From Perkinsus olseni (Eukaryota > Perkinsozoa > Perkinsida > Perkinsidae): a stretch of 64,000 bases of DNA. The position numbers were made by a program, and so were the translations under genes. The stretch covers positions 1 to 64,000 of the forward strand of contig JABANP010000015.1 in NCBI GenBank assembly GCA_013115135.1, given 5' to 3'. Below, piece after piece: positions 1,675 through 34,589 of this stretch (within the stretch, counting starts at the first letter, position 1; every line of letters begins with the position of its first letter). The notes beneath the pieces were generated by a model. That model searched no databases, was not told where the DNA came from, and saw only the letters and a program-made list of their open reading frames with translations.

Positions 1675-1696
1675 GATCTCTCAGAGATCATCTCTG
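1675..1696. repeat. Palindromic footprint, target octamer GATCTCTG
   Basis: The octamer is present as 7-mer, full reverse complement, then 7-mer. Compared with the copies at 24201 (minus) and about 30814 (plus) this is a 14-bp insertion. Confidence 0.85.
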
Positions 1697-2084
1697 ATCA
1701 AAGTCCTCCGGTTTCGCGACCAAGACAGAGGAGGCTAAACTATCACGTGCAGTGTGATTCACGACAGAATATACCAGCAGCAGAATGAGCTGCTAGTGAA
1801 CAAAAATAGAGCGGGATACTCGTAGGCTAGTCGAAAGAATAAGTGTTAATGGGATGAAGCCAGCAAAGGCACAGCCTCACTGTGACACTGACATGCAGAA
1901 CGTGCCAATCTCTGCGACTGAAGCGGGAGAATCCATTGATGCCTGCGGTGCACTGCTCAGTTGCTCGTCCATCTGGCAGGATCTCTATCCCCACACAACG
2001 TGAAAGTTTCTACAATGTCAATCTTGTTTGAGCAATCATACCGGCGTTGGTGAAAGCACATTAATCGCCGAAAGGTAGCCGAAG

Positions 2085-2255
2085 CCCGTGTGGGTCAGGA
2101 ACAGTTGACAAGGAAAAATGTTGCCTGTGTCTCGTTCCCATTGTCGATCACTAGTCAGCTAGACAAGGGGCCATACTGTGAGTAGAGGACCCATCGTCTC
2201 CAACGCCCAAACCCACGGGGAGGAGGAGCACACTCGCGTTCGAGTAACCGAGCAT
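2085..2255. other. Conserved non-coding block, copy 1 of 6
   Basis: About 145-170 bases are nearly identical at 2085, 9660, 16826, 23660-23790 (inverted), 28463 and 33040. No open frame is conserved across the copies. The rest of 1352-3091 shows no convincing gene apart from a short exon-like stretch near 2652-2834. Confidence 0.6.
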
Positions 2256-2794
2256 GGCAGGTCCGAGGGGAGCTGTCATAATACCTCGAGAATGCATTGA
2301 ACCCAAGTTACCGCGTCATGCATCGGTAGCTGCGTACCTCTACTAGCAATCCCCAAGTTGGCAGGCAGAATCACGCTCTCTACCTCAACCAGAGGCTCGC
2401 ATACAGTGTATGGCATACACCCTACTCAAAGCTAAAGCTTTTCAAATATTAGTTAAATAGAGCCACGCACTAGCCTACCTTCGTCCTGCTCCGTTCGCCT
2501 CTACAAGTTGACTCGACGCCGTGACACTATGGTGATGAGATGCATAGTATCTGGGTCAAATCGACCGGGTCAATCGAGTCAAGATCTCATCTATTCCCAA
2601 AACAGATCCGACAAACAATAGAGTGAATTTCGATTATGACCTTCCGCCTACGTGAAGTTACTGCCTGTGAAAATTTCAGTGTTTTCTGATAAAACATGGA
2701 GGTTTTATGCGAACATAAAGTCTCTGAGACTTGTTATTGCGGCGATATTGGTACACAAACAGTTGGGATTGGAAAACACAGCTGAGAATGTGAG

Positions 2795-2816
2795 GAGGGC
2801 CAAGCCCTCAGGTCTT
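2795..2816. repeat. Palindromic footprint, target octamer GAGGGCTT
   Basis: It shows the same 7+8+7 architecture with two later substitutions. The homologous place at about 31430 in the inverted-repeat right arm lacks the 14 bp. Confidence 0.7.
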
Positions 2817-3091
2817 GGGAAGGCTTTACAGTAGTCGTCCGTATTGTTGTGGATTTCCGAGAAGCCAACAGCCGACAGTCACCATAGCGCTCGTGGTTCC
2901 TGATCTCCGAGGCCATATGTATCAAATTGAATCGAAAGTGGCTTAGCGAGTGGAAGAGTGTACAAGGCTTAGACCCAAGCAGCGCTGCTTGATTTCTTCG
3001 TCCAGTTTGTTGCGCTGTCCTGCAGAGGCTACGGTGCTGCTCCTCGCAGTTGTTCTGAAATTTGTGTTCGTATCACTAGCGTCATCGATAC

Positions 3092-4352: not shown

Positions 4353-5560
4353 TGCTCGTTGGAATGCATTGTCGACAGTTGCCTTTTTTGCAAATGATGC
4401 CATTTTGTCGAACGCATGTGTTGTGTCCAGAGTTGTCCCCGTGCTGCTGGGGCGTGAGATACTGGAACTGGCGTGGATACAGTCAACCCCTGAACACTAC
4501 TCTCTGTGCATGTCAGTTTAAAGTCCAACGCCGTCGCCGGAATAGTTAGACTTGATGCCGATTTGCTAGCAACTTAACGATGAGCTCTGTGTCGCGTTAT
4601 CCAGTTGGCTGCCCGAACGCTGCCACAGCGAGCAGAAGTAGCAGATCAGGCCATCTCAATCCCTTCTGGCAAAATCCACTCCTCACATCGGGGCTGTGTC
4701 CAACTACCGGAATACGAGCGCTGCCGCGGCTGACCACACGAGTTTCTTCTCCAGGACTCGAGAATTCAATGACCCAGCTGCGCCTCACTGCTCCCGTGTG
4801 CAGTCATTCCTCGGCTTCAGATTCAAGGAGGGAGCTCTCGTTCCGTAAGGCCTTAGCCTTGAATGCCATCGTTAGTTTTTTACAGACGCTCGCAACCGCT
4901 GCACATCGGCTCACACTTATTGTTATCTGCCGTAAAGTACCACCAGCGTCCGTAAACGGAGAACGTCGACGGGTCGATGTAAGATGTCGAGAGATAAAAT
5001 GGCCCATCTCCTACGCAGAGCAATCTACTTGACACTCGATCCAACGACATCCAGAGAGCTTTTGCCTTTAATGTATGCGTGTTGGCGCCCAGCGAGGCTC
5101 AGGGCTTACATGCTGTCTTTCAAGTCTTGACGTATGTAGGATTCGGCGATTTTTGAAATTGATGGACAAAGTGAGTTAGGGCGTAGTCATTTGACCGTCA
5201 AATTTTGACGCTGTTCCTATCACAATTAGGTTTGTCTTTTCTCTGGAGAATGTGAATGCTCCTGTTGATTGTACTCCAACCTTCAGAGCAAAGCTCGTAT
5301 TGGGATTCTGCGCGGATGTTCGTGAATGTGTGCTGTGGCCTGTCGTTGAGGTCATTATCTCGGCTATCTCTGTACTCCTCTCATCATTCTCCCCTCTCAT
5401 CGTCTTCTAAGAAGACTCTGCTTCTCAATCTAGGACGCGGCACGGGCATTCTCTGGCCATTTGCCGCCGACATGATTCCTTTTGTAACCGCCCTTCTGCG
5501 GCTCGTCAGTCTCTTTTCCATTTCGTCCCGCAATTCCTCCATTCGACCATTCAAAATGAC
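4353..5560. other. Conserved stretch without a recognised gene
   Basis: It is duplicated in unit B (11944-13180). Open frames of 60-150 codons exist on both strands and are shared by both units, but none shows a domain or codon pattern I recognise, and identity between recent duplicates is no proof of coding. It probably includes the 3' end of the neighbouring retrotransposon. Confidence 0.4.
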
Positions 5561-7066
5561 TCATCCTCGCTGTTCGGTAGACAGTATCAGGCCCTGAAGA
5601 CCCTTTCCGTCATTCGTAGAAACCCCTCTAAGTACCATCGCCAGATCCCGGCTTCTAGTAACAGTCTCCCCCTGAGGGGGCCACGTTAGCCCTCGCAGAT
5701 TCATTTCTCGAACTAATGCCTCCCGTTGACTTTTCCATCGCTCGCACTCGTACAGAAAATGTCTCACATCCTCCGTGACCTGAGCGTCACAGTTCGGACA
5801 TTCATCACTGCCCCCATCAATTCGGCTCAGGCAGTATCGCAGCCGGCTCTGTCCTGAAATAAAACCCCAGAGATTGCGGCAGCCTTCCAGCCCCCTGAGT
5901 ATCTTCAGAGCTGATGCGGTGAGCACGAACTCCCTGATTGACCTTCCTAGTTTCCTGACCTCGCTTTCATACAGTGTGTCCGACTGCTGCTCGACGGATG
6001 TCCTCACCCTCTCAGAGACCACCGTGCGATATACGGGTACGATGAATGGCGGGTCATCGCCGTGTAGCGACAGCAGCTTTGCCAGCTGGTCCGCTCGGCG
6101 GATCCCTACGCAGGACTTTGACCTAACGTACTGCAACTCCACATTCACTCGCAAGTCCAGTGCGCGCTGCCGGATGTACTGCACTACAATTCCACGACAG
6201 AGCCTCCGCTTGGCAAGCCCAACTAGAATGTCAATTGCCCATTGGCAGTCCGTGATGACACATTTCTCCCCGAGTCGCATCTCCCCACGGCCTGTACTAC
6301 ACGAAGGACTCCCAAGAGCTCAGCCCGTAGTGGAGTTGAATGTGCAGGCAATTTCCAGCCCCACGTATTCCGCTCCTGTGTGTGACACAAAGGAGGTAGG
6401 GGTACGTGGCACGTAATCTCCGAGCCCTCTGACAGAACCGAGCCTGTAGCGCCCTCAGCTGCTTGGCAATCCTGGCGCGAAGGGCTGCGAATCCCCAGCA
6501 GCCAACCGCGTGCAGCAGGCAGCCCGGAGCCACTGCCTCAAAGAGCACCAGCGCGACATCAGTGTCCAACCTCCATGAGCTTCGGACATGCGCATTCACA
6601 GAGTGGTAAATACCCTCCAACCGACTGAGAATGTTCGAGGCATTAGCACCCCACCTGAATTCCCGATCCAGTGCCACTCCAAGCCATCGTACTGGCGACT
6701 CCACAATCACGTGATCACTCATGTTGATGTGGCACTAATACCTCCGTGCGCCCGGCATTTAGGAAAGCACATTAACTGTGTCTTCGGCCAGGAGAGCTTC
6801 ACTTTCACTAACCCACACCATTTTTTGAGTGCAGCATGGATTGCTCGAGCGGCGTCCCGTACCTCTTCCTCGGTCTTACACTGGAAGATCACAACGGCAT
6901 CATCAGCATACGTCGCGTAGGCCTAGGGCGATAGAACGTCGCTCAGGGACAGCATGAAACATTTGAATATCCAGGGGGACAATACCCCTCCTTGCGCCGC
7001 CCCCCGCGTGAGCTCCGTCGACATCTACTGCATGGTGCAGGGAGACTCATCGGCCCCTTAGATAAA

Positions 7067-7088
7067 CAAGGTGTCACCTTGAAGGTGA
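7067..7088. repeat. Palindromic footprint in the RT, target octamer TCACCTTG
   Basis: Perfect 7+8+7 structure (octamer given in RT sense). The homologous RT copy has the plain octamer at about 26270, so units A and B carry a 14-bp insertion that breaks the RT frame. Confidence 0.85.
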
Positions 7089-7089
7089 T

Positions 7090-7114
7090 CACCCCCGAGT
7101 CGGGGGGCCCGACC
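7090..7114. repeat. Probable second footprint, octamer about GTCGGGGT
   Basis: It lies a few bases from the previous footprint. The structure agrees with the 7+8+7 rule after two substitutions and one extra G in a G run. The spacer RT copy near 26261-26268 lacks it. Confidence 0.55.
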
Positions 7115-8517
7115 CCATGGGCTTTCATCTCCTTGAGGGTCGCCCTGGGCGACTCGCCCAAGGACCCCACGTGAACGCCCCTTCAACGTCGAGAAAGATG
7201 TATCCTGCACTGTAGCCATTCTGCCAGATCTTCCTTACTTCGCTCTCAAGGTTTGCGATCGCAGTATCACACCCTTTGCCTGGAAGGTAGGCATGAAAGG
7301 AGTCTGGAAACTCTATCAGCCGTTCAACTCGCCGATATGCGAGTCGCTCGAGCACGCGAGTGAGTGCAGTCGGTACAGTTATCGGCCTCCATGACTTCAC
7401 CTCCCATGCTGGACTATCATGCCCTTTTGGCAGCGTTATAACGTAGCCACTCTTAAGATCACAAGGCAGCTGCCGATGGTGTAGGAATGCGGTGAACATC
7501 TCACAGAACACCTGAGGCTCCCTCTCTATCGTGAGCTGCATTGCGCTATCCGGAACCGAGTCTGTTCCCGGACATGATGATGCCCTTACTTCTTTCGCAC
7601 TAGCCAGGAGCTCTGCTTTGGAGACGGGTAACGCGTCACGAGTTCAACCTCGGGGGCTCCCTCTCATTGTCACAAGTACTGGTTTAGCTCCAGGCCCTTT
7701 GTAGTGTTCACCAGTGAGTACAGCCCCGCATCTCTTCCTGCATATTAAGACGAACCCCGCTACAAGCTGTCTACTTATTTCCGGTGTCACGTTCCTACTT
7801 CGGCTGTATACGATCTCTGATGCTTCTCCGTTGTTGCTCATAGTCAACGCAAGGCGAGAAGGATTGTAAAGCCTTCTACTTTCTGCTTCTAAGCTTAGTC
7901 TCTCGAGGGGAATAAGCTATGCAGGCATGCACAAGACGATCGGCGCATAATGAGTAACAATCTCACTACCTGTCGGGACGGCCCGCGGGCCGTCCCCCCA
8001 CACGGAGAATGATAACGCTGTGTCCGTTTGTGGCTGACATTTGTGACTGGTTGATGCGACTGTAGCACTTCAACCTCCCCTCCTGAGTCGTCTTTATGTA
8101 GCCACTTCCTAGCCTAGGATTCCTAAGGTTACAGTGACGGAGCGAGCTCTCGCACTGGTAGACAGCAGCCTGTCTCTTCGCACCACAATTATTCAGCTGA
8201 TCCGCAGCTCGTGGCAGCGCTATTAGCAGCTCTAGACATCAATAGCTTTGAACGACAGGATTCTCTTTCTCTTGAGGATAAATGTCCGGGCCGTAAAACC
8301 TTTCAGCCTACCAAACCTGAACACTCTCACGCACGCAATCGTGTGAGTCGAAGGCGCATAGTGCGGCATTGGGATGGAGGCGATTCGCTAAGGTTCCCGG
8401 AACCCTCAGGCCCTTCCCGTGTTGCTCAAGAAATAGGGTGAAAATCACTATCGGCAGCAGTTGGACCGGTCGTCCTGTTGCCGTTGAGTCTTACGACTCA
8501 GTTCTCTCATTAGTAAG

Positions 8518-8937
8518 ATGGTATTCCGCAACATCATTCGTGGTCTCTCTATTGTGATCCTGGTGATTGGCGCTCCCCCGCCTCCTAGCGGAACCTTTTC
8601 TACGGTGATCGCTCAACAACCCTCATTCCTCTGCGTACAAACTACTTGGAGTGAAGATCCGCATGAGGACGTCAAACTGGGTGTGAAGTGCGGTATCGCC
8701 GAGATCGAGTCCGACTACTTGACTGTTGATAAGGTGGTACCCTCGGTCTATAAGCTTGATGACGCTAGCCATGAGGACTACGATTTCTTTCGCAATTCGG
8801 TGGATTGGAAATGCCAAGAATTTCCGGCTATGCAGGTCGGCGACTTGGCTACGTTCAACTACGATAGAACTAGCCAGTCCATGATGGTTCCGTTTCAAGG
8901 GGCTAAGCGAAACCTCACAGCCGGAGCATGCTTCTGA
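8518..8937 (+). CDS. Small secreted four-cysteine protein, intact (139 aa)
   Basis: The reference member of a family with at least eleven copies here. Residues 1-18 form a hydrophobic signal peptide, followed by a short proline run (PPPP, 20-23) and a mature domain of about 115 residues. Four cysteines (39, 58, 99, 138) recur in nearly all paralogues and could make two disulphides; 'NLT' near 132 is a possible N-glycosylation site. Shared motifs are 'VTW' after the first Cys, 'LGVKC', 'SDYLTV', 'GDLATFNY' and a C-terminal Cys-Phe. The start is fixed by the signal peptide and by agreement with paralogues; the gene has no intron. I recognise no known fold or function. Secretion and copy number suggest an external or host-facing role, which is inference only. 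Confidence 0.85.
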   Translation: MVFRNIIRGLSIVILVIGAPPPPSGTFSTVIAQQPSFLCVQTTWSEDPHEDVKLGVKCGIAEIESDYLTVDKVVPSVYKLDDASHEDYDFFRNSVDWKCQEFPAMQVGDLATFNYDRTSQSMMVPFQGAKRNLTAGACF

Positions 8938-9257
8938 AGCATGGAGGCGTTGCCGTACTCGACTTACAAGCGGCCCCACGATTTTATCTCTGGTTTTGGG
9001 ACTGGAAGTGCTCCCCTATCGGTATCTTTTTCACCCTCACGCTAAACTTTCGATGACAGTTTCCCTGGAACTGTTTATAATCATTTTTTAACTTATCATC
9101 GATGTCATTGATTCAACAGGTCTTAGCCGTCCGAGGATATCTTATTTCATGTTCCCAGTCGAGCTGCGTAGGCTAATTGGATCAGTCAGTCAATGTCAAT
9201 CTCCGATTCATGATATTGCCCCTATTTGCCTGCGAGAGTGCAAGGCGCTCCTGCACT

Positions 9258-9279
9258 GATCTCTCAGAGATCATCTCTG
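9258..9279. repeat. Palindromic footprint, octamer GATCTCTG (unit B copy)
   Basis: Identical to 1675-1696, so the insertion predates the A/B tandem duplication. Confidence 0.85.
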
Positions 9280-9659
9280 ATCAAAGTCCTCCGGTTTCGC
9301 GACCAAGACAGAGGAGGCTAAACTATCACGTGCAGTGTGATTCACGACAGAATATACCAGCAGCAGAATGAGCTGCTAGTGAACAAAATAGAGCGGGATA
9401 CTCGTAGGCTAGTCGAAAGAATAAGTGTTAATGGGATGAAGCCAGCAAAGGCACAGCCTCACTGTGACACTGACACTGTCATGCAGAACGTGCCAATCTC
9501 TGCGACTGAAGCGGGAGAATCCATTGATGCGTGCGATGCACTGCTCAGTTGCTCGTCCATGTGGCAGGATCTCTATCCCCACACAACGTGAAAGTTTCTG
9601 CAATGTCTGTCTTGTTTGGGCAATCATCCCCGTGTTGGTGAAAGCACATTAATCGCCGA

Positions 9660-9830
9660 AAGGTAGCCGAAGCCCGTGTGGGTCAGGAACAGTTGACAAG
9701 GAAAAATGTTGCCTGTGTCTCGTCCCCATTGTCGATCACTAGTCAGCTAGACAAGGGGCCATACTGTGAGTAGAGGACCCATCGCCTCCAACGCCCAAAC
9801 CCACGGGGAGGAGGAAGCACACTCGCGTTC
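9660..9830. other. Conserved non-coding block, copy 2 of 6
   Basis: See the block at 2085. It lies about 700 bases downstream of the secreted gene in every unit that has one. Confidence 0.6.
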
Positions 9831-10383
9831 GAGTAACCGAGCATGGCAGGTCCGAGGGGAGCTGTCATAATACCTCGAGAATGCATTGAACCCAAGTTAC
9901 CGCGTCATGCATCGGTAGCTGCGTACCTCTACTAGCAATCCCCAAGTTGGCAGGCAGAATCACGCTCTCTACCCCAACCAGAGGCTCGCATACAGTGTAT
10001 GGCATACACCCTACTCAAAGCTGGAGCTTTTCAAATATTACTTAAATAGAGCCACGCACTAGCCTACCTTCGTCCTGCTTCGTTCGCCTCTACAAATTGA
10101 CTCGACGCCGTGACACTATGGTGATGAGATGCATAATATCTGGGTCAAATCGACCGGGTCAATCGAGTCAAGATCTCATCTATTCCCAAAACAGAGCCAA
10201 CAAACAATAGAGTGAATTTCGATTATGACCTTCCGCCTACGTGAAGTTACTGCCTGTGAAAATTTCAATGTTTTCTGATAAAAAAATGGAAGTTTTTGCG
10301 AACATAAAGTCTCTGAGATTTGTTATTGCGGCGATATTGGTACACAAACAGTTGGGATTGGAAAACACAGCTGAGAATGTGAG

Positions 10384-10405
10384 GAGGGCCAAGCCCTCAG
10401 GTCTT
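10384..10405. repeat. Palindromic footprint, octamer GAGGGCTT (unit B copy)
   Basis: Same as 2795-2816. Confidence 0.7.
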
Positions 10406-10680
10406 GGGAAGGCTTTACAGTAGTCGTCCGTATTGTTGTGGATTTCCGAGAAGCGAACAGCCGACAGTCACCATAGCGCTCGTGGTTCCTGATCTCCGAG
10501 GCCATATGTATCAAATTGAATCGAAAGTGGCTTAGCGAGTGGAAAAGTGTACAAGGCTTAGACCCAAGCAGTGCTGCTTGATTTCTTCGTCCAGTTTGTT
10601 GCGCTGTCCTGCAGAGGCTACGGTGCTGCTCCTCGCAGTTGTTCTGAAATTCGTCTTCGTATCACTAGCGTCATCGATAC

Positions 10681-11943
10681 ATGGTCTCACGTTTTCGTCT
10701 CGGCTTCGGAGTGACCATGCTGGCCGTAGCAGCGGGTCTCTACTATGAATTCGGTTATCTTTTGAGTCTGCACTCTATTAAGGTTAATAGAGACTGGATA
10801 GCTGCTGAGGTAAGGCCTGAGTCGCTCGTTACTTCCTTCTATGGGCTGTCATCCCTCGCAGGTCGAGAGGAATTTTTGGCTGTCGGCATGTATTTACATG
10901 CTTGCGATGTGCCTCGATATCGGTCTCACAATACCGGGAGCGACTACCCTGTCATTCGCGGGAGGGCTTTTCTTCGACCAGCCCTACGCGGCCATATTTT
11001 CTTACATGGGGTGAGTGACGAGGGCTCTTCCCAGCACCGGTCACTAAAGCCTTTTCCCTCCGTCGTGCATAGCAGTAGTCGAATATCGAGAATGTCCCAG
11101 GAATTTTCGTTGATTTCTTGCGAATACCGAGACTGTGGAAGCACAGATCATGCTCGATCATTGTCTCCCTTCCCAAGGGCTAATTGGAAGCATCGCTCTA
11201 TCAAAGTCTGCGGAGGGGAGGGGGGCTTGGAGGCTTTCGCGCACGAACTTTGGAGTGCTGCCCGGCCGAGCATTTGGTATGTGCTGTTTGGCAGGTATGT
11301 TATTGGAGCATGCGTATCATACTTGCTGGTCCGGACAGTACTCGCAGACTTCGCGAAGTGGCTACTGAATACGGAAAGTCGGTTGTACAAGAAGTTGGAG
11401 AGAAACTTGAAGAACAATGCATTCATCTATCTCATCGCTGCAAGATACACATTGGTCGGTCGTCGAACTCTATACGCGGGCAGCTCCGTACACCTCGGCT
11501 TCTCATTGCAGGTTTTCCCTTTCTGGTTCGTCAATGGTTGCGCGGCGCTAACTGGTGTGCCATTCACTACCTTTATGTCGGCCACCGCCGTTGCAGTGAT
11601 ACCGGGCTCTGTCCTCTATACCACTGCTGGCCGCGCCATGACCAACGTCCTCGCCACCCTCGACCAGGACACAAAAGTCTCTGTGACTGATGTAAGAGGG
11701 CCGATGGCTTCAAGCTATCAAGTCCTGAGATGAGCGGCTTGGCTGCTGCAGGTTCTGATACAGTCGATGGGCTCAGACGACGTGAAAGCCTCTGCAATGT
11801 CCCTCGCTGTTTGCGGTATCATCCCCGTACTGATGAAAATACGAAGCCACCGGAAGAAGATGGCCAAGGCTCACAATGAAGCTGATGGGCTTGGGAAGGC
11901 AGCGAGCAAGGACACTTCTCAGCAAAAGAAGAAAACTTCTTAG
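10681..11943 (+). CDS. VTT/TVP38 (DedA-like) family membrane protein
   Basis: A predicted multi-pass endomembrane protein. The frame opens with a hydrophobic N-terminal segment. The core (about 11230-11690) has the features of a VTT/SNARE-associated domain: a membrane helix with 'YLLVRTVLADF', a charged stretch, an Arg-rich 'YLIAARYTLVG', then 'FVNGCAALTGVPFTTFM' and a Gly/Pro re-entrant-like segment 'VAVIPGSVLYTTAG'. The continuous frame ends at 11733. A GT-AG intron (about 11688-11751) splices it to a final exon with one more membrane helix and a Lys-rich tail ending at 11943. The stretch 10810-11200 reads poorly and probably holds unspliced introns. Eukaryotic relatives (TMEM41/TVP38 types) act in lipid scrambling and vesicle traffic. 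The family call is fairly sure; the exon map is not. Confidence 0.65.
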
Positions 11944-13180
11944 TGCATTGCCGATAGTTGCTTATTTTTGCGAATGATGCCATTTTGTCGAACGCATGTG
12001 TTGTGTCCAGAGTTGTCCCCGTGCTGCTGGGGCGTGAGATACTGGAAATGGCGGGGATACAGTCAACCTCCGAACACTTCTCTCTGTGCGTGTCAGTTTT
12101 AGGTCCACCGTCGTCGCCGTATTAGTTAGACTTGATGCCGATTTGCTAGCAACTTAACGATGAGCTCTGTGTCGCGTTATCCAGTTGGCTGCCCGAACGC
12201 TGCCACAGCGAGCAGAAGGAGCAGATCAGGCCATCTCAATCCCTTCTGGCAAAATCCACTCCTCACATCGGGGCTGTGTCCAACTACCGGAATACGAGCA
12301 CTGCCGCGGCTGACCACACGAGTTTCTTCTCCAGGACTCGAGAATTCAATGACCCAGCTGCGCCTCACTGCTCCCGTGTGCAGTCATTCCTCGGCTTCAG
12401 ATTCAAGGAGGGAGCTCTCGTTCCGTAAGTCCTTAGCCTTGATTGCCATCGTTAGTTTTTTACAGACGCTCGCAACCGCTGCACATCGGCTCACACTTAT
12501 TGTTATCTGCCGTAAAGTACCACCAGCGTCCGTAAACGGAGAACGTCGACGGGTCGGTGTAAGATGTCGAGATATAAGATGGCCCATCTCCTAGGCAGAG
12601 CAATCTACTTGACCATCGATCCAACGACATCCGGAAAGCTTTTGCCTTTAAAGCGAGGCTGAAGGCTTGCATGCTGTCTTTCAATTCTTGACGTATGTAG
12701 GATTCGGCGATTTTTGAAATTAATGAACAAAGTGAGTTAGGGCGTAGTCATTTGACGCTGTTCCTATCACAATTAGGTCTGTCTTCTCTCTGGAGAACGT
12801 GAATGCTCCTGTTGATTGTACTCCAACCTTCAGAGCAAAGCTCGTATTGGGATTCTGCGCGGATGTTCGTGAATGTGTGCTGTGGCCTTATAGCGGTGTT
12901 GCCGGCCTGTCTTTGGGGTCGTTATCTCGGCTAACTCTGTACTCCTCTCATCATTCCCCCCGGAGGGCCTCTCATTATCTTCTAAGGAGAATCTTCTTTC
13001 TTCCCAATCTTGGACGCGGCACGGCCATTCTCTGGTCATTTGCCGCCAACATGATTCCTTTTGTAACCGCCCTCCTGCGGCTCGTCAGTCTCTTTTCCAT
13101 TTCGTCCCGCAATTCATCCATACGGTTATTCAAGATGACTCATCCTCACTGTTCGGCAGACGGCATCAGTCTCTGAAGAC
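11944..13180. other. Unit B equivalent of 4353-5560, no recognised gene
   Basis: Colinear with unit A apart from small indels. Shared open frames exist on both strands, but I see no domain in them. Confidence 0.4.
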
Positions 13181-15410: not shown

Positions 15411-15783
15411 CCGGAACCGAGTGGTAGACAGCAGCCTGTCTCTTCGCGCTACAATTACTCAGCTCATCCGCAGCTCGTGGCAGCGCTAGAAGCAGGTCTA
15501 GACATGAATAGCTTTGAACGACAGGATTCTCTTTCTCTTGAGCATAAATGTCCGGGCCGTAAAACCTTTCAGCCTACAAAACCTGAACACTCTCACGCAC
15601 GCAATCGTGTGAGTCGAAGGCGCATAGTGCGGCATTGGGATGGAGGCGATTCGCTATGGTTCCCGGAACCCTCAGGCCCTGCCGGTGTTGCTCAAGGAAT
15701 AAGGTGGAAATCACTATCGACAACAGTTGGACCGGGCGTCCTGTTGCCGTTGAGTCTTACGACTCAGTTCTCTTGATAGTACG

Positions 15784-16203
15784 ATGGTATTCCGTAACAT
15801 CATTCGTGGTCTCTTCATTGTGGTCCTGGTGATTAGCTCTCCCCCACCTCCTAGTGGACCCTTTTCTAAGGTGATCGCTCAACAACCCTCATTCATCTGC
15901 GCACAAGTCACTTGGAGTGAAGATCCGCATGAGGACGTCTCACTGGGTGTGAAGTGCGGTATCCCCGAGAGCGAGTCCGACTACTTGACTGTTGATACGG
16001 TGGCACCCTCGGTCTATAAGCTTGATAACGCTAGCCGTAATGAATACAATTTCTTCCGCAACTATGTGAATCAGCGATGCCAAGGATTGTTGACTATGGA
16101 GGACGGCGACTTGTCTACCTTCAACTACGATAGAACTAGCCAGTCCATGATGGTTCCGTTTCAAGGGGCCGAGCGGAACCTCACAGCCGGAGCATGCTTC
16201 TGA
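15784..16203 (+). CDS. Small secreted four-cysteine protein (139 aa), unit C
   Basis: An intact paralogue of the 8518 protein with the same length, signal peptide, proline run and four Cys positions. It differs mainly between the second and third cysteines ('NASRNEYNFFRNYVNQRC' replaces the unit B sequence). It resembles the copies at 24553 (minus) and 32092 more than units A and B, so two subtypes coexist here. The upstream 360 bases are the same conserved 5' region as in units A and B. Confidence 0.85.
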   Translation: MVFRNIIRGLFIVVLVISSPPPPSGPFSKVIAQQPSFICAQVTWSEDPHEDVSLGVKCGIPESESDYLTVDTVAPSVYKLDNASRNEYNFFRNYVNQRCQGLLTMEDGDLSTFNYDRTSQSMMVPFQGAERNLTAGACF

Positions 16204-19165: not shown

Positions 19166-19365
19166 GGCCTCGACCGTTGGGTTACTATCGAGAGGAGCAA
19201 TCACTTTCTCCTGGGGGTAACGAAGTGATTGAAGGTTGGCTGTAGACCGATTCCGGTATCCCACGTTCCAACAGCACAGGACCAACTCTCGACACAATAC
19301 TTGCGTTCGACAAAGTGGCATCATTAGCAAAAGAGGCAACTATGGACAATGCATTCCAACGAGCA

Positions 19366-23659: not shown

Positions 23660-23790
23660 GGTTTTCTCCTCCCCGTGGGTTTGGGCGTTGGAGGCGATGG
23701 GTCCTCTACTCTCAGTATGGCCCCTTGTCTAGCTGATTAGTGAATCACTAATAGTGATCGACAATGGGGACGAGACACAGGTACGGTTAC
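23660..23790 (-). other. Conserved non-coding block, copy 4 of 6 (inverted)
   Basis: A truncated inverted copy of the block at 2085, interrupted by the footprint at 23737-23758. Confidence 0.6.
23737..23758. repeat. Palindromic footprint, octamer TTAGTGAT
   Basis: Perfect 7+8+7. The right arm has the plain octamer in inverted form at 28544-28551, so this insertion arose after the inverted duplication. Confidence 0.9.
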
Positions 23791-24261: not shown

Positions 24262-24283
24262 GAGGTCGTCGACTTCAGGTCGA
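24262..24283. repeat. Palindromic footprint, octamer TCGACCTC (inverted copy)
   Basis: Same event as 16469-16490, with one substitution. Confidence 0.8.
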
Positions 24284-24552: not shown

Positions 24553-24960
24553 TCAGAAGCATGCTCCGGCTGTGAGGTTTCGCTTAGCCCCTTGAAACGG
24601 AACCATCATGGACTGGCTACTTCTATCGTAGTTGAAGGTAGCCAAGTCACCGTCCTGCATAGCCAACAATCCTTGGCATCGCTGATTCACATAATAGCGG
24701 AAGTAAATGTATTCATCACGGCTAGCGTCATCAAGCTTATAGACCGAGGGTGCCACCTTATCAACAGTCAAGTAGTCGGACTTGCTCTTTTGGATACCGC
24801 ACTTCACACCCAGTGAGACGTCCTCATGCGGATCTTCACTCCAAGTAACTTGTACGCAGATGAATGAGGGTTGTTGAGCGATCACCTTAGAAAAGGGTCC
24901 GCTAGGAGGTGGGGGAGAGCTTATCACCAAAACCACAATAAAGAGACCACGAATAATCAT
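24553..24960 (-). CDS. Small secreted four-cysteine protein (135 aa), new start
   Basis: A paralogue of the unit C protein with all four cysteines and the C-terminal Cys-Phe. The ancestral start (24986, minus strand) is followed after eight codons by a stop, because a 14-bp palindromic insertion lies at 24951-24972. That same insertion supplies a new ATG at 24960, in frame with the rest of the signal peptide ('MIIRGLF' replaces 'MVFRNIIRGLF'). The protein is thus four residues shorter and may still be exported. The upstream region also has a larger palindromic insertion (25006-25053). Confidence 0.8.
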   Translation of the reverse strand: MIIRGLFIVVLVISSPPPPSGPFSKVIAQQPSFICVQVTWSEDPHEDVSLGVKCGIQKSKSDYLTVDKVAPSVYKLDDASRDEYIYFRYYVNQRCQGLLAMQDGDLATFNYDRSSQSMMVPFQGAKRNLTAGACF

Positions 24961-24972
24961 TATTCAATAATG
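24951..24972. repeat. Palindromic footprint, octamer CATTATTC
   Basis: Perfect 7+8+7 on the minus strand, inside codons 6-8 of the ancestral secreted ORF. The plain site is at 15798-15805 in unit C with one difference. Confidence 0.9.
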
Positions 24973-26101
24973 TTACTAAATACCATGGTACTATTGAAAG
25001 AACTGAGTCGTAACTCACGACGTTGAGTCTTACGACTCGTAAGGCTCAACGGCAACAGGACGCCCGGTCCAACTGCTGCCGCTAATGATTTCCACCCTAT
25101 TTCTTGAGCAACACGGGAAGGGCCTGAGGGTTCCGGGGAACCTTAGCGAATCGCCTCCATCCCTATGCCACACTATGCGCCTTCTACTCACACGATTGCG
25201 TGCGTGAGAGTGCTCAGGTTTTGTAGGCTGAAAGGTTTTACGGCCCGGACATTTATGCTCAAGGGAGAGGTCCTGCCGTTCAAAGCTATTGATGTCTAGA
25301 CCTGTTTCTAGCGCTGCAACGAGCTGCGGATCAGCTGAATAATTGTAGTGCGAAGAGACAGGCTGCTGTCTACCAGTGCGAGAGCTCGCTCCGTCACTGT
25401 AACCCTAGGATGTGGCTACATGAGGACGACTCACAAGGGGAGGTTGAAGCGATACAGCCGCATCAACCAGTCACAAATGTCAGTCACAAACGGTCAAAGC
25501 TTTATCAGTCTTCGTGTGGGGGACGGCCCGCGGGCCGTCCCGGACGGGTACTAAGATCGTATACAGCCGAAGTGGGAACGTGACACCGGAAATAAGTAGA
25601 CAGCTTGTAGCGGGGTTCGTCTTAATATGGAGGAAGAGATGCGGGGCTGTACTCACTGGTGAACACTACAAAGGGCCTTGAGTTGAACTAGTACTTGTGA
25701 CAATGCGAGGGAACCCCCGGGGTTGAACTCGCCCCCAAAGTAGAGCTCCTGGCATAGCCAGACTGGCTAGTGCGAAAGAAGTGAGGGCATCATCATGTCC
25801 GGGAACAGACTCGGTTCCGGTTACCGCAATGCAGCTCACGATAGAGAGGGAACCTCAGGTGTTCTGTGAGATGTTCACCGCATTCCTACACCATCGGCAG
25901 CTGCCTTGTGATCTTAAGAGTGGCTACGTTATAACGCTGCCAAAAGGGCATGATAGTCCAGCATGGGAGGTGAAGTCATGGAGGCCGATAACTGTACCGA
26001 CTGCACTCACTCGCGTGCTCGAGCGACTCGCATATCGGCGAGTTGAACGGCTGATAGAGTTTCCAGACTCCTTTCATGCCTACCTTCCGGGCATAGGGCG
26101 T

Positions 26102-26123
26102 GACACTGGCAGTATCATACTGC
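26102..26123. repeat. Palindromic footprint, octamer GATACTGC
   Basis: 7+8+7 with one substitution in the first arm. Plain octamer in unit A at about 7261-7268 (minus strand). Confidence 0.85.
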
Positions 26124-26338
26124 GATCGCAAACCTTGAGAGCGAAGTAGGGAAGATCTGGCAGAATGGTTACGGTGCAGGATGCATCTTTCTCGAAGTTG
26201 AAGGGGCGTTCGACAAGTGCAGTCCTTGGGCGACCCTCAAGGAGATGAAAGCCCATGGGGTCGGGGTGATCACCTTGTTTTACTCTCCTTTTATCTGAGT
26301 GGCCGACGGGTCTCCCTGCAGTGCAGTGCACTGCAGTG

Positions 26339-26379
26339 CATCTACTGCATGGTGCAGGGCCTGCACCATGCAGTAGATG
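26339..26379. repeat. 41-bp palindrome, 20-bp arms
   Basis: Arms 26339-26358 and 26360-26379 are exact reverse complements around a single G. Units A and B have only one arm (7021-7042, 14882-14903). The local insertion totals about 45 bp, a different size class from the 14-bp footprints. Confidence 0.9.
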
Positions 26380-26416
26380 TTTCCACGACGGAGCTCACGC
26401 GGGGGACGGCGCAAGG

Positions 26417-26438
26417 AGGAGTAATACTCCTGGAGTAT
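26417..26438. repeat. Palindromic footprint, octamer AGGAGTAT
   Basis: Perfect 7+8+7. The plain octamer is at 14843-14850 in unit B (minus strand). Confidence 0.9.
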
Positions 26439-26772
26439 TGTCCCCCCGGATATTCAACTGCTTCATCATGAAGCCTGCGAAGCCTCAAGCCTAGAAGCAT
26501 GAAGCCTTCATGCTGTCCCTGAGCGACGTTCTATCGCCCTGGGCCTACGTGACGTATGCTGATGATGCCGTTGTGATCTTCCAGTATAAGACCGAGGAAG
26601 AGGTACGGGACGCCGCTCGAGCGATCCATGCTGCACTTAAAAAATGGTGTGGGTTAGTGAAAGTGAAGCTCTCCCGGCCGAAGACACAGTTAATGTACTT
26701 TCCTAAATGCCGGGCTCACGGAGGTATTGGGTGTCACATCAACATGGATGATCGCGTGATTGTGGACTCGCC

Positions 26773-26794
26773 AGTACGAATCGTACTGTACGAT
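26773..26794. repeat. Palindromic footprint, octamer AGTACGAT
   Basis: Perfect 7+8+7. Plain octamer in units A (about 6686-6693) and B (14547-14554). Confidence 0.9.
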
Positions 26795-28434: not shown

Positions 28435-28462
28435 CTGGGTTGACCAGCTAACCTTCTTCAAC

Positions 28463-28625: not shown

Positions 28626-30063
28626 ACCTGCGCCGACGCCCATAGCGTGATCGACACCCTGCATTATAGCCTTCAAGTAGATCCCAAGCGCAGCACCCCT
28701 GCATTTACGCCCCTGTTGCGATGCTAGTATGGACGGAACCCTAATACAATGCTGTCCAGACCAGAGGGCCGTAGCACGTTTGTATCTGCGTGCGTCTGTG
28801 CCTTCGTACGGGTGTGACTACCCTGCGCGTGTTAGGATTTACCAGGAAAGTAGACGAGTATTCCGGTATGTGAAAACTGAAAGGACAGGAAAGGCGCGAA
28901 GAGCTGGAGCAGCATGAAAATGATAGCTGATGAAGATGCAAGTCCAGGTTGCTCAAGTCCCGCATGTCACGCATTTCACGCTGTACGTCACCCACCTATC
29001 TACAAACTATGTAAGTACCGGTTACGTAGTAGGCGCGTTTAGTTACGAGGCGGAGACAATAGCACAATTGCGTCCGCTCAGCTCGGCGCTTCGCGAGCTA
29101 GATAGCAGAGTGCTGCAACCGTTCTGGTTGGCCAGTGCACATCGTCAGGCTTCACAGTTTTATTTGATTTTAAACCCATCTCACCCACACCTGCGTTGGA
29201 GGCTCTGGTGCGGTTTGTTACCGACCAGGTCTCGCGGGCCCATCATGCCCTGGCAAGCGCCGTGCCATGTGTATGCGTACCGCTGCCATGATTGCGGCTG
29301 ACCGATTCACATGCCGGTGTCTGACGGACACCGGGTAGCGTTCGGTGCTTGCCCAGGTTCATGATAGGGCCGCTGCTGATCATCCAAACTTCGCAGGTAT
29401 GGTTGGAGACTCGCTAACTAACCCGTTGTCTTACCGAGTGGCGGCGTGCTACGGGCGACGGGGTGACTCCGTCGGGGTCCCGTCCCGCGGGTGCTCCGGT
29501 CGGTCCGGTTATATTCCCGAACGAAAACAAGCATCCCCAATTCAGTACGATTACGAGTGACGAGCCGTAATAGCGGGAGTAAAAGTATCGAACTAAAATC
29601 GCATGCACACACGCGCGCGCAGTGTCCCCCCGTGACACCTACGGGGGACAGATGAAAACGGTGGAGAGAAGTAGAAAAGCCCCAGAATGAGAAGAGTGGA
29701 GAGTGAGTACGGAGGCGAATAACTAGGCGGATGGGAGACTCGTCTAGGCTCCAGTTGTTGCACACCGGACATTGAAGACCGCACAATGCCGACGCAGAGC
29801 ACTCTCTTGCACGCAATTGCATAGCCTACGTGGTACCACATAGCGTGGCAAAGCTGCGAAGCTGAGAGTTATGAGGACGACCTGTGTCCGTTCGCGAATT
29901 CCTCTGGACCGTGCCGTGAGGCTCAAGAGATGGGATGCAAATCATTGGTGTGCATCCGATCTCTTGAGCGATGTGACATGTGAGTAGTGTGACATCACTA
30001 GCGGAAGCAGCCGTACCTGTCGTGATGTTGCCGCAATCTGACGACCTTAGTTCTTTTAGTGGC

Positions 30064-30477
30064 ATGATGCTCTCCCGTAACATCATTCGCTGTCTCTCCC
30101 TCGTGGTCTTGGTTAGCAGCAATCCTCCACCTCCAGACGGCGCCTTTTCTACGATGCCCGCTGACGATGTCTGTATACAAGTCACTTGGACTAATCGTCC
30201 GCGTAAAGAGGTCACACTGGGTGTGATGTGCGGCGGCAAGAAACAGCAGTGCTTCGACCTGACTGTTGAGAAGAACGCACTCTCGGGCTACAAGATCGAT
30301 AACGCTAGCTGGTCTTCATACAACAATTTTCGCGGTTATGTGAATGAACGATGCGGAGGATATTTGGTTATGCGGCCCGACAACTTGGCTACCTTCACAT
30401 ACAATACAGCTTTGGGGACGGTAGACGTTCAGTTTGAAGGCTTGATAGAACATTTGACACCCGACGCATGCTTCTGA
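30064..30477 (+). CDS. Small secreted four-cysteine protein, diverged member
   Basis: Codes for about 137 residues. The start follows the paralogues ('MMLSRNIIRCLS'), and a frame-compatible upstream ATG at 29980 is unlikely. It has the signal peptide, the proline run (PPPPDG), 'CIQVTW', 'LGVMC' and the C-terminal Cys-Phe, but the central part is strongly changed and has extra cysteines (residues near 9 and 62). No intron. Its upstream region can form a long hairpin (about 29930-29970). The equivalent gene has been deleted from the left arm of the inverted duplication. Confidence 0.8.
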   Translation: MMLSRNIIRCLSLVVLVSSNPPPPDGAFSTMPADDVCIQVTWTNRPRKEVTLGVMCGGKKQQCFDLTVEKNALSGYKIDNASWSSYNNFRGYVNERCGGYLVMRPDNLATFTYNTALGTVDVQFEGLIEHLTPDACF

Positions 30478-31709
30478 TTTAGAAGTTCTGAAGCACAGAG
30501 TCGTTGTCGTACTCAAATCAAAGACTACCCCACGGATTGCATCTCCGGCCTGGATACTGGAAGTGCTCCATCTTTCGCTACCTTCTTCACACTGACGCTA
30601 GAAATTCGTTGACGGTGTTCCCGGCGTAGCCCATGATCGCTAACTCATCATCAATACTAGAGATTCAATGGGTCCTCATCGGTCTTTGTCGTCCGATATA
30701 ATTTTATTTCATGCTCCGAGTCGAGCTGTGTGAGTAAGTTGGATGCGTTAGTCCTTGTCGACCTCCGATTGATGCCCTTGCTCCTAGATGCTTGCGAGAG
30801 CGCAGGGCGCTCCTGCACTGACCTCTTATCAAAGTCCTCCGTCGACCTAGGCACAGTGGAAGCCAAACTATCAGTGTGATTTGACGGCAGAACGCAACAG
30901 CGTAGGTCAGATGACCGAGTATGAGTCAAAGATTTATAGCGTACTGGCTGACATCTGCCAGGACATTGGCTGCGACTTCCTGATAGTGGCTCGACGACTT
31001 CGAGTCGAAGTCGTGTGTTCATTATGGAGGGCGATGGTGCTGAGGGCACTGAGGAAGTGGAATCCACTCCCTCAATGCCTCAGCACCACTCAGCGGATTT
31101 GAGGGAGGTTTACACACTGAGGCAGCAAGGGCTCAGCAGTAGTAGGACTGTGTTCGACAGCCTGAGTGGCCACGCGGCCCCGGCCAGCAGGGCACGGGCC
31201 TTCAGCCTAAAGGCTTCAGGAGGCGCTTACGTAGTGAAACCTTGGAGAGGTTCTTCCGTCAGCTACTCGTGGATCTCAACCGGTCGATGAATTGGCGGGA
31301 AGGAGGTGGCCGACGGCCAGGTGGTGCCGAAAAGTTTCTATATCCGCGCGGATCCAGCGCTCGGGTGCTGCCCCAGGGCATCGGCAATATTGGTACACAA
31401 GCAATGGGTGTTGGAAAACACTGCCGAAAATGTGAGAAGGGCTTCGGAAGGCTCGAGAGTAGTCGATCTCATTGTCGTGGATTCCCGAGAAGCCCTCGGC
31501 CATCGTTGTGTTGGTTACCATAGCGCTCGTGGTTCAGGTGATGCGTAAACCGATAGACGCCCACACTTTCCAAGACGACACCGTGATCTCCGAGGCTCTA
31601 CGTATTCAGTCAACGCATTCATCTATCTCATCGCTGCAAGATACACATTGGTGGGTTGGACTCTATACGCCAGCAACTTCGGGCACCTCGGCTTCCCATT
31701 GTCGGTTTT

Positions 31710-31731
31710 TCCTTTCAGAAAGGGCCTTTCC
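31710..31731. repeat. Palindromic footprint, octamer CCCTTTCT (right arm)
   Basis: Inverted counterpart of 19667-19688. Confidence 0.85.
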
Positions 31732-31753
31732 GGTTCGTGGCGAACCGTTCGTC
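31732..31753. repeat. Palindromic footprint, octamer GGTTCGTC (right arm)
   Basis: Inverted counterpart of 19645-19666; directly adjacent to the previous footprint. Confidence 0.8.
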
Positions 31754-32091
31754 AATGGTTGCGCGGCGCTAATTGATGTAAGAGAGCCGATAGCGCCTTC
31801 GAGCTATCGAGTTCTGAGGTGCTGCAGGTTCTGATACAATCGATGGGCTCAGACGACGTGAAAGCCTCTGCAATGTTGCGCTGTTTGCGGTGTCATTCCT
31901 GTACTGATGAAAATACGAAGCCACCGGAAGAAGATGACTAATGCCCACAATGAAGCTGATGGGCTTGGGAAGGCAGCGAGGAAGGAGACTTCTCAGCAGC
32001 AGAAGAAAACTTCTGAGTGCTCGTTGGAATGCATTGTCTATATGCAATGACAATCCTCAGTTCCTCTATCCTTAGTTCTTTGAATGATATG

Positions 32092-32503
32092 ATGGTCTTC
32101 CGCAACATCATTCGTGGTCTCTTTATTGTGATCTTGGTGGTCAGTCCTCCCCCACCTCCTAGCGGAGCCTTCTCTAAGGTCACCGCTCAACAGCCCTCAT
32201 TCATCTGCGCACAAGTCACTTGGAGTGAAGATCCGCATGAGGACGTTTCATTGGGTGTGAAGTGCGACGACCGGGAACAGGAGTCCGACTACTTGACTGT
32301 TGATAAGGTGGCACCCTCGGTCTACAAGCTTGATAACGCTAGCCGTAATGAATACAATTTCTTATGTGAATCAGCGATGCCAAGGATTGTTGGTTATGCA
32401 GGACGGCGACTTGGCTACCTTCAACTACGGTAGAACTAGCCAGTCCATGATGGTTCCGTTTCAAGGGGCCGAGCAAAATTTCACAGCCGGAGCATGCTTC
32501 TGA
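32092..32503 (+). pseudogene. Small secreted four-Cys protein, 8-bp deletion
   Basis: Close to the unit C protein. Signal peptide, proline run and first two cysteines are intact. Near 32365 eight bases present in unit C (between 'NFF' and 'VNQRC') are missing, so the frame shifts and ends early; the original frame resumes immediately and would reach the usual C-terminus. Everything else is well conserved, so the loss is recent or an assembly error. Confidence 0.75.
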
Positions 32504-34589
32504 GGCATATAGCCATTGTCGTACTCGACTTTAGAGACTACCCCACGGATTGTATCTCCGGCATTGGGACTAGAAGTACTTCCCCTTCGGCATCTTTTTC
32601 ACCTTCATGCTAAAATTTCGTTGACAGCGTCCCTGGCGAAGCTCATAATCATCAAGTTGTCATCAATACTATTGATTCAATAGAACTCCATCGGTCGTTT
32701 GTCATCCGAGACAATCTTATTTCATGTTTCGAATCGAGCTGCGTAAGTGAATTGAATCCGTTAGCCCTTGTCGACCTCCGATTGATGCCCTTGCTGGAAC
32801 CCAGCACACTGTGACACTGAGCGCAGGCACAACCTCACTGTGACACTGCCATGCAGAGCGTGCCAATCTCTGCGGCTGAAACGGGGGGAATCTATTGATG
32901 CCTGCGGTACAGGGCCCAGTTGCTCGTCCAGCCGTCCTGGCAGGATCTCTGTCCCCACCAGCGTCCCCCCAAAGTTTCTGCGTTGTGTCTCGTTGTTTGC
33001 GCAATCATCGCGGTGTTGGTGAAAGGACGTTCAGCGCTGAAAGGTAGCCGAAGCCCGTGTGAGTCACGAACAGTTGACAAGGAAAAATGTTGCCTGTGTC
33101 TCGTCCCCATTGTCGATCACTAATCAGCTAGACAAGGGGCCATACTGTGAGTAGAGGACCCATCGCCTCCAACGCCCAACCCGTCAGGGGGAGGAGGAGC
33201 ACACTCGCGTTTGATAACCGAGGATGGCAGGTTCGAGGGAGAATGCCATAATAGCTCGAGATTGCAATCAAGCTCCCGTTTCTGCGTCATACATCAGTAG
33301 CTGCGTATCCTAGGGATCCTCGGGTTGGCATGCAGAAGCACGCTTTCTACTCTAACCTGACGCTAGCACACACCCTACTCAGGGTTAGAGATTTCTAATA
33401 CCAGTCGAATAGAGCCACACACTAGCCTAACTTCGGCCTGCTTCATAGGCCTCAACAACTTCACTCGATGCCAACGTGTAATCGAGTTGCAATGCCATTG
33501 GCATGACATGGCACTGCCATGCCAGACTGGCATTGCCAGTATGGTCTTGAAATGCATATTAGCATTTCGGGCAATTGAGTCAGGATCTCAATATTTTTGA
33601 AACAGAGTCAACAGGTAATGGAGTGAATTCCGGTCATGTCCTTAGGCCATGCCAAGTTACAGCCTCTTAAAATGCCAGTGTTCTATGCGAGCAAGTGAAG
33701 TTTTTGAAGACGGCAATTGTGTATTATTGGCGAGGTAGCCGTCGGCGCCCTTGTGCTGAGAGACGTGGCGAATGTACCAGGTAAAGCACGACGCATAAGG
33801 ACAGCTTCAATGCCTTCTATACAGAAATGCGAAGTGGCGGCTCGCCAATAGCGGCGTTGGTGGTGGCACTCGAGGCCATGCAAAACATTCGAAGCAGAGG
33901 CGAGCGAACACAAGCAGGCCTGAGTACTTGCCCACCTCCAAAGAAGCCCTAAAACGTGAACAAATGCCTGGCAGGAAGACCAACGTCTCCATAATTCAAC
34001 GCGCTACTGCTGGGCCGTTTCGAAGCATTGTGCGCCTTGTCGTGCACCTGCAGGGATAGCGATAGTGGGGTGATAAAATACGCCACGCCGGGATCGAACT
34101 CGCGTGAACGTATGTAAGGCATGCCCGTGGGCCTGCCGTAAATTCGGAAATATATTTCGTCCTACTCGTAAGAAAACCTCATCTTTAGACAGCATGGACC
34201 TAAGTGGAACACCTCGAGCGCCATGGGCTCTCCAGACGATTGTTTGATAGCACCTCCGAGGACAGGTTATTGAGATTCTTAGTTTCGTCAACAACGGCTT
34301 ACCGAGGTATTCCCTACAACATCGGCCTTACAGTCTCTATCAAGCTCCGGGCTAGTGCATCCTGTAGGCCTGCGGAGGCAAAGGGGCACCTTCGCCCGGG
34401 GCGGTATTCTCAATGGGGGGAGGGCTCATTTGATAGGGAGGGCCGCCGGTTGTGGCGCCGATTCATGTGCCCAGTGATAGCCCTACTGGCGCCACCGAAG
34501 CTGCTCAACAGCTTCGCTCGAGCAACTCCCTGATCGCCGCTAGCGACCTCTTTCTTAGTTTGGCTTCACTCTCTCATCGACGAGCTACA
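32504..34589. other. Intergenic region before PRP19
   Basis: 32504-33400 is a diverged version of the unit 3' region and includes conserved block copy 6 (33040-33190). From 33600 to 34589 I see no gene; open frames lack any recognisable protein signature. Confidence 0.5.
33519..33540. repeat. Palindromic footprint, octamer ATGCCAGT
   Basis: Perfect 7+8+7 found without a paralogue. It sits in a palindrome-rich stretch (33485-33545); unit A (about 2520-2560) has a shorter sequence at the equivalent place. Confidence 0.7.

Follow-up and report, generated by a model that had tools for sequence, protein, structure and literature searches.

Uniform 22-bp palindromic insertions in the Perkinsus olseni genome, probable excision footprints of hAT-type DNA transposons

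Palindromic insertions of one form in the analysed stretch

The stretch considered here, hereafter the window, comprises 64 kb (positions 1 to 64,000 of contig JABANP010000015.1) of the 61.5-Mb, 968-contig assembly of Perkinsus olseni, and contains a tandem duplication of ~7.6 kb. Scattered through it are palindromic insertions in which an octamer S has become S(1-7)+revcomp(S)+S(2-8), so that 8 bp turn into 22 bp, a gain of 14. A first-pass annotation had described this rule as exact, had counted at least 13 such insertions between 1675 and 33540, and had attributed them to the excision of hAT-type transposons. Throughout the text, positions without other label are window coordinates, while labels beginning with C or L denote other contigs or loci of the same genome.

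The window was scanned for the general form S(1..k-1)+revcomp(S)+S(2..k) at k=5-13. At k=8, 15 perfect 22-mers were found, only 12 of them distinct because the sites at 1675 and 9258, 7067 and 14928, and 7139 and 15000 are duplicated copies. The other values of k yielded a single perfect case (k=6), with none at k=5, k=7 or k=9-13. As a chance control, restricted to k=8, a first-order Markov model of the window was used to generate 640 kb of sequence, which contained no case with 0-1 mismatches, 2 with up to two and 28 with up to three. The exact +14 rule was borne out. The sites are listed below with strand "." in every case; the term footprint anticipates the probable origin discussed later, and "form only" marks assignments that come from the form of the sequence itself.

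520 to 541: footprint of ATCCTAGG, 2 mismatches; 14-bp gap against the copy at 25500-25314
1675 to 1696: footprint of GATCTCTG, perfect; 14-bp gap against 24311-24111 and 30739-30892
2399 to 2420: footprint, CCATACAC form, 1 mismatch; paralogue at 33284 has a 10-bp gap within the site, no clean 14
2795 to 2816: footprint of GAGGGCTT, 2 mismatches; 14-bp gap against 31382 and 20018
5189 to 5210: footprint of ATTTGACG, perfect; 14-bp gap against 12664-12847
5402 to 5423: 22-mer, GTCTTCTT form, 1 mismatch; paralogue at 12977 resembles a decayed copy, no empty copy
7067 to 7088: footprint of CAAGGTGA (= TCACCTTG), perfect; octamer present once in the paralogue at 26320, poor alignment
7092 to 7113: footprint of about ACCCCGAC (= GTCGGGGT), best register CCCCCGAC with 1 mismatch; 15-bp gap against 26320
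7139 to 7160: footprint of GTCGCCCA, perfect; 14-bp gap against 26265
8106 to 8127: duplicate of the 520 footprint
9258 to 9279: duplicate of the 1675 footprint
9988 to 10009: duplicate of the 2399 footprint
10384 to 10405: duplicate of the 2795 footprint
14928 to 14949: duplicate of the 7067 footprint
14953 to 14974: duplicate of the 7092 footprint
15000 to 15021: duplicate of the 7139 footprint
16469 to 16490: footprint of TCGACCTC, perfect; 14-bp gap against 30671, 13-bp gaps in two further copies
18214 to 18235: 22-mer, TCGGGTAG form, 1 mismatch; form only
19645 to 19666: 22-mer, GGTTCGTC/GGCGAACC form, 2 mismatches; form only, inverted copy identical, no empty window copy
19667 to 19688: 22-mer, CCCTTTCT form, 2 mismatches, abutting the 19645 site; form only, no empty window copy
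20183 to 20204: 22-mer, CCTGAAGG form, 1 mismatch; common to the inverted copy at 31199
23737 to 23758: footprint of TTAGTGAT, perfect; 14-bp gap in each of five paralogues
24262 to 24283: inverted copy of the 16469 footprint, 2 mismatches
24951 to 24972: footprint of GAATAATG (= CATTATTC), perfect; 14-bp gap in three paralogues
25748 to 25769: footprint, TCTGGCTA form, 2 mismatches; 14-bp gap against 7712-7511
26102 to 26123: footprint of GATACTGC, 1 mismatch; 14-bp gap against two paralogues
26417 to 26438: footprint of AGGAGTAT, perfect; 14-bp gap against two paralogues
26773 to 26794: footprint of AGTACGAT, perfect; 14-bp gap against two paralogues
30471 to 30492: footprint, CTTCTAAA form, 2 mismatches; 14-bp gap at 30472
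30990 to 31011: 22-mer, CTCGAAGT form, 1 mismatch; decayed inverted copy at 20393, no empty copy
31710 to 31731: inverted copy of the 19667 site
31732 to 31753: inverted copy of the 19645 site
32662 to 32683: 22-mer of ATCAATAG, perfect; paralogues diverged and of similar length, no 14-bp gap
33519 to 33540: footprint of ATGCCAGT, perfect; form only, no empty window copy
39801 to 39822: 22-mer, TGGTTGCT form, 1 mismatch; form only
42566 to 42587: 22-mer, GGACACCT form, 1 mismatch; form only
46865 to 46886: 22-mer of ACTGCCAT, perfect; form only

The octamers originally reported were mostly perfect, as claimed: eight of the 13 (GATCTCTG, TCACCTTG, TCGACCTC, TTAGTGAT, CATTATTC, AGGAGTAT, AGTACGAT and ATGCCAGT) had no mismatch, two had one and three had two (GAGGGCTT, GGTTCGTC and CCCTTTCT). 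The two with a single mismatch were GATACTGC and the site given as about GTCGGGGT at 7090 and 14950, whose footprint was retained and whose position was shifted to 7092 and 14953. The figure of at least 13 proved a true lower bound: the sites at 5189, 7139/15000, 32662 and 46865 are also perfect, several more are nearly so, and some of these additions lie past 33540.

That the 22-mers are insertions was examined in alignments of paralogous copies of at least 70% identity, in which gaps of at least 5 bases with good flanks were collected and merged into sites, the 22-mer form being testable at even gap lengths only. Among the 50 merged gap sites, 14 bases was the commonest length (17 sites), followed by 5 bases (7 sites). 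All 17 of the 14-bp sites, representing 14 distinct 22-mers, fitted the form within 2 mismatches. At the 14 sites with other even lengths, three 6-bp gaps and one 8-bp gap fitted with 1 mismatch in 6 or 8 compared bases, fits that carry little weight because short arms match easily, and the remaining 10 mismatched the form at 36-55%. The odd lengths accounted for 19 sites, two of which (7096 and 14957), with gaps of 15 bp, correspond to the 7092 footprint and its duplicate.

Moreover, when the flanks of 159 footprints (0-2 mismatches) were sought in other sampled copies, leaving out 11 pairs with gaps of 4.5-7.9 kb (tandem-repeat artefacts) and pairs beyond -50 or 8000, 67 usable, non-independent comparisons were obtained, in which the paralogous position held the bare octamer in 31, a 22-mer in 32, a gap of 0 in three and a gap of 8 in one. 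In some empty window paralogues, the remaining octamer was altered by 1-2 bases (AAGGGCTT, GAATGATG and GACCTCTT). Regarding the 13 octamers reported at first, the claim that window paralogues reveal the insertion held for eight, with a gap of 14 bp in one or more copies; the 7067 site aligns badly, the 7092 site has a gap of 15, and GGTTCGTC, CCCTTTCT and ATGCCAGT have no empty copy. The 22-mer at 32662 is either an old footprint shared with its paralogues or no insertion relative to them. Two other insertions, both of 45 bp relative to a paralogue (26300-26390 and 26430-26540), are rich in nested inverted or direct repeats, and neither obeys the 14-bp rule.

Abundance and uniformity of the class beyond the window

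The sample beyond the window consisted of 28 loci (225 kb), namely 20 stretches of 10 kb and eight loci picked for hAT matches, which brought the scanned sequence to 289 kb. The 20 stretches were not random: 19 came from the first 20 contigs, always at one set offset, and one, on C18 (L026), was picked for its hAT match. These 225 kb contained 59 perfect 22-mers, 43 in the 20 stretches and 16 in the eight hAT-match loci, with no k=7 or k=9 version in any of the 28 loci, so that the predicted excess was found outside the window as well. Altogether, 74 perfect 22-mers were identified, 70 of them distinct.

The geometry of the class was explored by varying the octamer length (5-14) and the offset (0-4), and subsequently through a matrix of middles of 5-25 bases and arms of 5-9 bases. 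At length 8, offsets 0, 1, 2, 3 and 4 returned 0, 74, 0, 1 and 4 cases, those at offsets 3 and 4 being short-armed. In the matrix, the cell of middle 8 and arm 7 held 74 cases and that of (10,7) held 8, while (12,7), (21,7) and (23,7) held 1 each; the arm-5 cells contained 0-4 each (21 in total) and the arm-6, arm-8 and arm-9 cells were empty. Arms of 3-5 bases gave up to 98 cases per cell, a level that short arms reach by chance. The (10,7) cell was rejected as a second class, since seven of its eight members are perfect 22-mers extended by one base per side and the eighth (L009:1175) is likewise an extension around a 22-mer with 1 mismatch; the single (12,7) case, also an extended 22-mer, was rejected as a separate class. 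Thus, among classes with arms of 6-9 bases, octamer length 8 at offset 1 stands alone, and the distribution of palindrome lengths is not smooth.

By eye, the cases at window 17955 and L020:315 (middles of 23 and 21, arms of 7) resemble 22-mers with a further internal insertion, and perhaps reflect repeated insertion and excision at one place. In addition, pairs of 22-mers abut with no base between them at 19645-19688 and 31710-31753, which are mutual inverted copies, and at L009:808-851, whereas the pair at 7067 and 7092 is 3 bases apart and that at L020:5226 and 5245 overlaps. Neighbouring insertions may favour each other.

Extrapolation from the 43 cases in 200 kb gives ~13,200 perfect copies genome-wide (bootstrap 6,800-20,300, from non-random stretches), and ~12,300 when the C18 stretch with its 5 sites is set aside (38 in 190 kb). 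The 159 footprints comprise 74, 36 and 49 sites with 0, 1 and 2 mismatches, respectively, a spread that is as expected if the scars arose over a long time and then decayed. Stop-to-stop frames of at least 200 amino acids cover 22% of the bases, though only 2 of the 74 perfect sites lie in them (p=3.7e-6), a depletion that fits a +14 insertion being a frameshift.

Candidate sources of the insertions

Several lines of evidence suggest, with considerable probability, that excision of hAT-type DNA transposons left these 22-mers as footprints. First, their arms pair around one unpaired base, and such odd-centred palindromes (offset 1, not 0) fit a nick placed one base into the flank. In a passage of PMC1978519, Ds footprints led to the inference that the nick falls at the base next to the element. 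Second, the footprint octamers favour nTnnnnAn (T2 and A7), which 55 of the 140 half-sites carry where 33.7 would be expected (p=4.5e-5). This was the strongest among 16 position/base tests, the weaker ones being G4 (p=0.002) and a depletion of T1 and G2 (p=0.003). A passage of PMC10368747 states nTnnnnAn as the target preference of Hermes, together with 8-bp duplications.

Third, the genome harbors both hAT domains and candidate elements. The hAT dimerisation domain (PF05699) had 21 matches, and one open frame of at least 595 amino acids carries DUF4371 together with PF05699, with a weak sequence match to the solved Hermes chains (E=0.7-1). Two element families were recognized by the ends CAGGGTCGTTGG and TAGAGCTGGGC, which we take to be hAT-type terminal sequences. 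Nine copies of the CAGGGTCGTTGG family were examined at both ends: the 8-bp duplication was exact in seven (two at the same site), differed by one base in another, and the last was without a left end. The TAGAGCTGGGC family had 91 candidates in the genome, 40 of which were scored; in 20 copies the duplication was exact in 13 (two at the same site), had 1 mismatch in six and was absent in one, each duplication being read at whichever boundary near an end scored best, a choice that biases the counts toward matches. T2/A7 occurred in 16 of 36 half-sites of these duplications. Within the 289 kb, eight candidate pairs of ends with 8-bp duplications were identified, three of them hAT-type by their ends (L004, L020 and L022), and the other five chance-like or, in L026, a long inverted repeat. 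We infer that resident hAT-type elements or their relatives made the scars. The excision reading of the first-pass annotation is supported in this way by the odd-centred palindromes, the nTnnnnAn preference and the hAT domains and elements, and families with 8-bp duplications do exist in this genome.

Target duplications of 8 bp are not exclusive to hAT, and the scars could instead derive from another superfamily of DNA transposons that combines such duplications with flank hairpins, as Kyakuja-Dileera-Zisupton (KDZ), Merlin or an undescribed one. At L022:8014-9725, as judged by eye, an element without terminal inverted repeats is flanked twice by the octamer CAGAGCAC, so not every 8-bp duplication here is hAT-like. 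However, this origin appears improbable: hAT domains are plentiful, the octamers show the T2/A7 preference that part of PMC10368747 states for Hermes, and the genome had no match to the Merlin-type domain (DDE_Tnp_IS1595), whose control matched in 1 of 14 genomes, nor to the KDZ domain, a weak absence since its control matched nowhere.

Somewhat less probable still is a domesticated hAT-like transposase, comparable to Kat1 of Kluyveromyces lactis, whose regulated and near-quantitative excision would include the uniform joint as part of its programme. The scars are indeed uniform and far more numerous than the elements, and a passage of PMC4763223 gives a precedent for a domesticated hAT hairpin-former. 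Against this, the scars are of mixed age, as their 74, 36 and 49 members with 0, 1 and 2 mismatches show, and the octamers are diverse, their weak preference being the one also seen in the duplications of the resident elements.

Polymerase template switching or fold-back at breaks generates short palindromic insertions, described in yeast as mostly ~5-34 bp in a portion of PMC11724301; such insertions vary in length, whereas here a single cell (8/7) holds 74 cases, which makes this source very unlikely. Chance, low complexity or an assembly artefact has a very small probability, since the class had no member in the 640 kb of Markov sequence, and since the window and the 28 loci contain 70 different 22-mers, many of them aligned to empty copies in the assembled sequence.

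Some observations weigh against excision of hAT-type elements as the origin of the 22-mers. Across the 289 kb and the relatives of element sites, no site was found at which one copy is filled by an element while another carries the 22-mer built on that octamer, few sites being informative. This comparison involved the joined flanks of eight element sites, which had 49 matches in the genome (40 of 74 candidates scored); the 15 stretches examined comprised 13 unoccupied relatives and two filled ones. The joined flanks of 18 element sites had 56 matches, from which six stretches were examined, three aligning on both sides and three on one side only, and none of the six had a 22-mer at the site. 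In the 13 and 3 unoccupied relatives aligned on both sides, one octamer was present, exact or changed, and never a 22-mer; these relatives may predate the insertion. The genome was also searched with footprint-rich stretches, the result tables being judged by eye. A +14 difference at C622:23896-24002 was considered as a scarred element site and rejected, the footprint (GTGTAACA) being perfect but 12 bp off the octamer of that site.

Moreover, scars far exceed recognisable elements: the 289 kb contain 74 perfect 22-mers but three elements that are hAT-type and have 8-bp duplications, of which one sits in a locus picked for its hAT match. Ordinary hAT scars, which are near-tandem duplications of 7-8 bp, are also scarce: by eye, they account for one of seven gaps of 7-8 bp, and this sole case (L012:2961) is a near-tandem octamer inside a tandem-repeat tract. 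The host would need a strong bias to one product. Loss of classical end joining was considered as the source of such uniformity and is unsupported, given that the genome has matches to both the Ku domain (28.3 bits over 43 positions) and DRMBL (Artemis/Pso2-type).

Two further repeats were rejected as source elements. The 142-bp repeat at 231-372 has, by eye, duplications of ~5 bp and TG..CA ends, and is thus like a long terminal repeat (LTR); a 277-bp block (C161 and others; window 6375) has, by eye, neither terminal repeats nor an 8-bp duplication. The 231-372 repeat is high-copy, with ends TGTTGC...GTAACA (TGATGC in the window copy), may represent a solo LTR or a short non-autonomous element, and is missing from the window's own copy at 25560. 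The 1.7-kb element at L022:8006-9733 (8014-9725 by eye) has many internally deleted relatives in the genome.

The window also has open frames. A NOB1-like protein encoded in it had two matches, one to the P. olseni 'Nin1 binding protein, partial' (97% over 48%) and another at 88% over 78%. On the minus strand, frames at 5561-6319, 7125-7643 and 14986-15573 resemble remnants of a non-LTR-like element within the tandem repeats of the left half of the window; the last had a reverse transcriptase match (RVT_1, E=4e-6, under the curated cut-off) and the first had no Pfam match. On the plus strand, the short frames at 29977-30477, 41324-41782, 43220-43684 and 44819-45283 resemble one another by eye and look like one family; their starts are signal-like, and in most of them a proline-rich stretch comes next. 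The one family frame searched (29977-30477) had no Pfam match.

A possible route to a single joint

A route from hAT excision to a single product can be proposed as follows. The element would lie between two copies of an octamer S (N1..N8), its 8-bp target duplication, and the transposase would nick one base into each flank and seal each flank as a hairpin, the left one reading N1..N7-N8'..N1' and the right one N8'..N2'-N1..N8. If both hairpins were unfolded, their 3' overhangs would be complementary over exactly N8'..N1', and annealing in register, gap filling and ligation would produce N1..N7 + N8'..N1' + N2..N8, that is, 22 bp (+14). The joint itself would be made by host end joining through microhomology. 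The same product would arise from any opening positions that leave overlapping overhangs, provided that annealing is in register, and a single length could be obtained without a precise opening enzyme because any overlapping in-register opening would yield it. It is the joint unfolding and annealing of the two hairpins that we infer from this geometry. A broader proposition, for which we see even chances of being right or wrong, is that hAT excision in this lineage has essentially one lasting imprecise outcome, with hairpins unfolded over the full duplication and joined in register over 8 bp by a transpososome-coupled or host pathway undescribed elsewhere; each scar would then be a readable and datable record of one insertion and one excision, amounting to ~13,000 in one genome by extrapolation.

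In V(D)J recombination, off-centre opening of flank hairpins adds palindromes, the P nucleotides, which are short and even-centred, unlike the odd-centred, full-length and double palindromes described here. The parallel with V(D)J has been drawn for Ds excision in part of PMC1978519. Ac/Ds footprints also resemble the 22-mers: a passage of PMC5873905 describes palindromic insertions whose centre is the complement of the base beside the element, hairpin opening and microhomology, and the last was involved in ~85-100% of Ac/Ds footprints in yeast and Arabidopsis, with palindromic arms of up to 20 nucleotides in yeast. Hermes, for its part, forms hairpins on flanking DNA, as a passage of PMC4763223 indicates and as is proposed here, and the 8-bp duplications with nTnnnnAn given in part of PMC10368747 are another likeness.

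The earlier description of known footprints as mostly short and heterogeneous holds broadly, but Ac/Ds arms reach the length just mentioned, and although a site yields from several to many products, one can dominate. In Arabidopsis, a passage of PMC1978519 reports the same Ds footprint in 11 of 17 excisions from one site, and for Ac/Ds in Candida albicans 28 different footprints are reported among 128, two of them predominant. Unlike these mixed collections, a single product is found here, in which two overlapping palindromes are joined over the whole 8-bp duplication, across ~70 octamers. One paper, PMC3706591, names Perkinsus, palindromic and hAT together. No 22-mer class appears in the titles or abstract openings of the open-access papers retrieved on hAT footprints and on Perkinsus transposons, genomes, end joining, palindromes and footprints. 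Excision footprints of hAT type are a known kind, and what is unusual here is the one form and the large number.

If this interpretation is true, the single product would mean that unfolding spans the duplication and that annealing occurs in register, and the opening and joining of hAT hairpins within the cell would become testable. A +14 insertion would be a recurrent source of frameshifts and palindromes, which bears on gene decay in P. olseni. The genome of this organism would preserve a record of past excisions whose number, place and age could be read from sequence alone, without the elements themselves.

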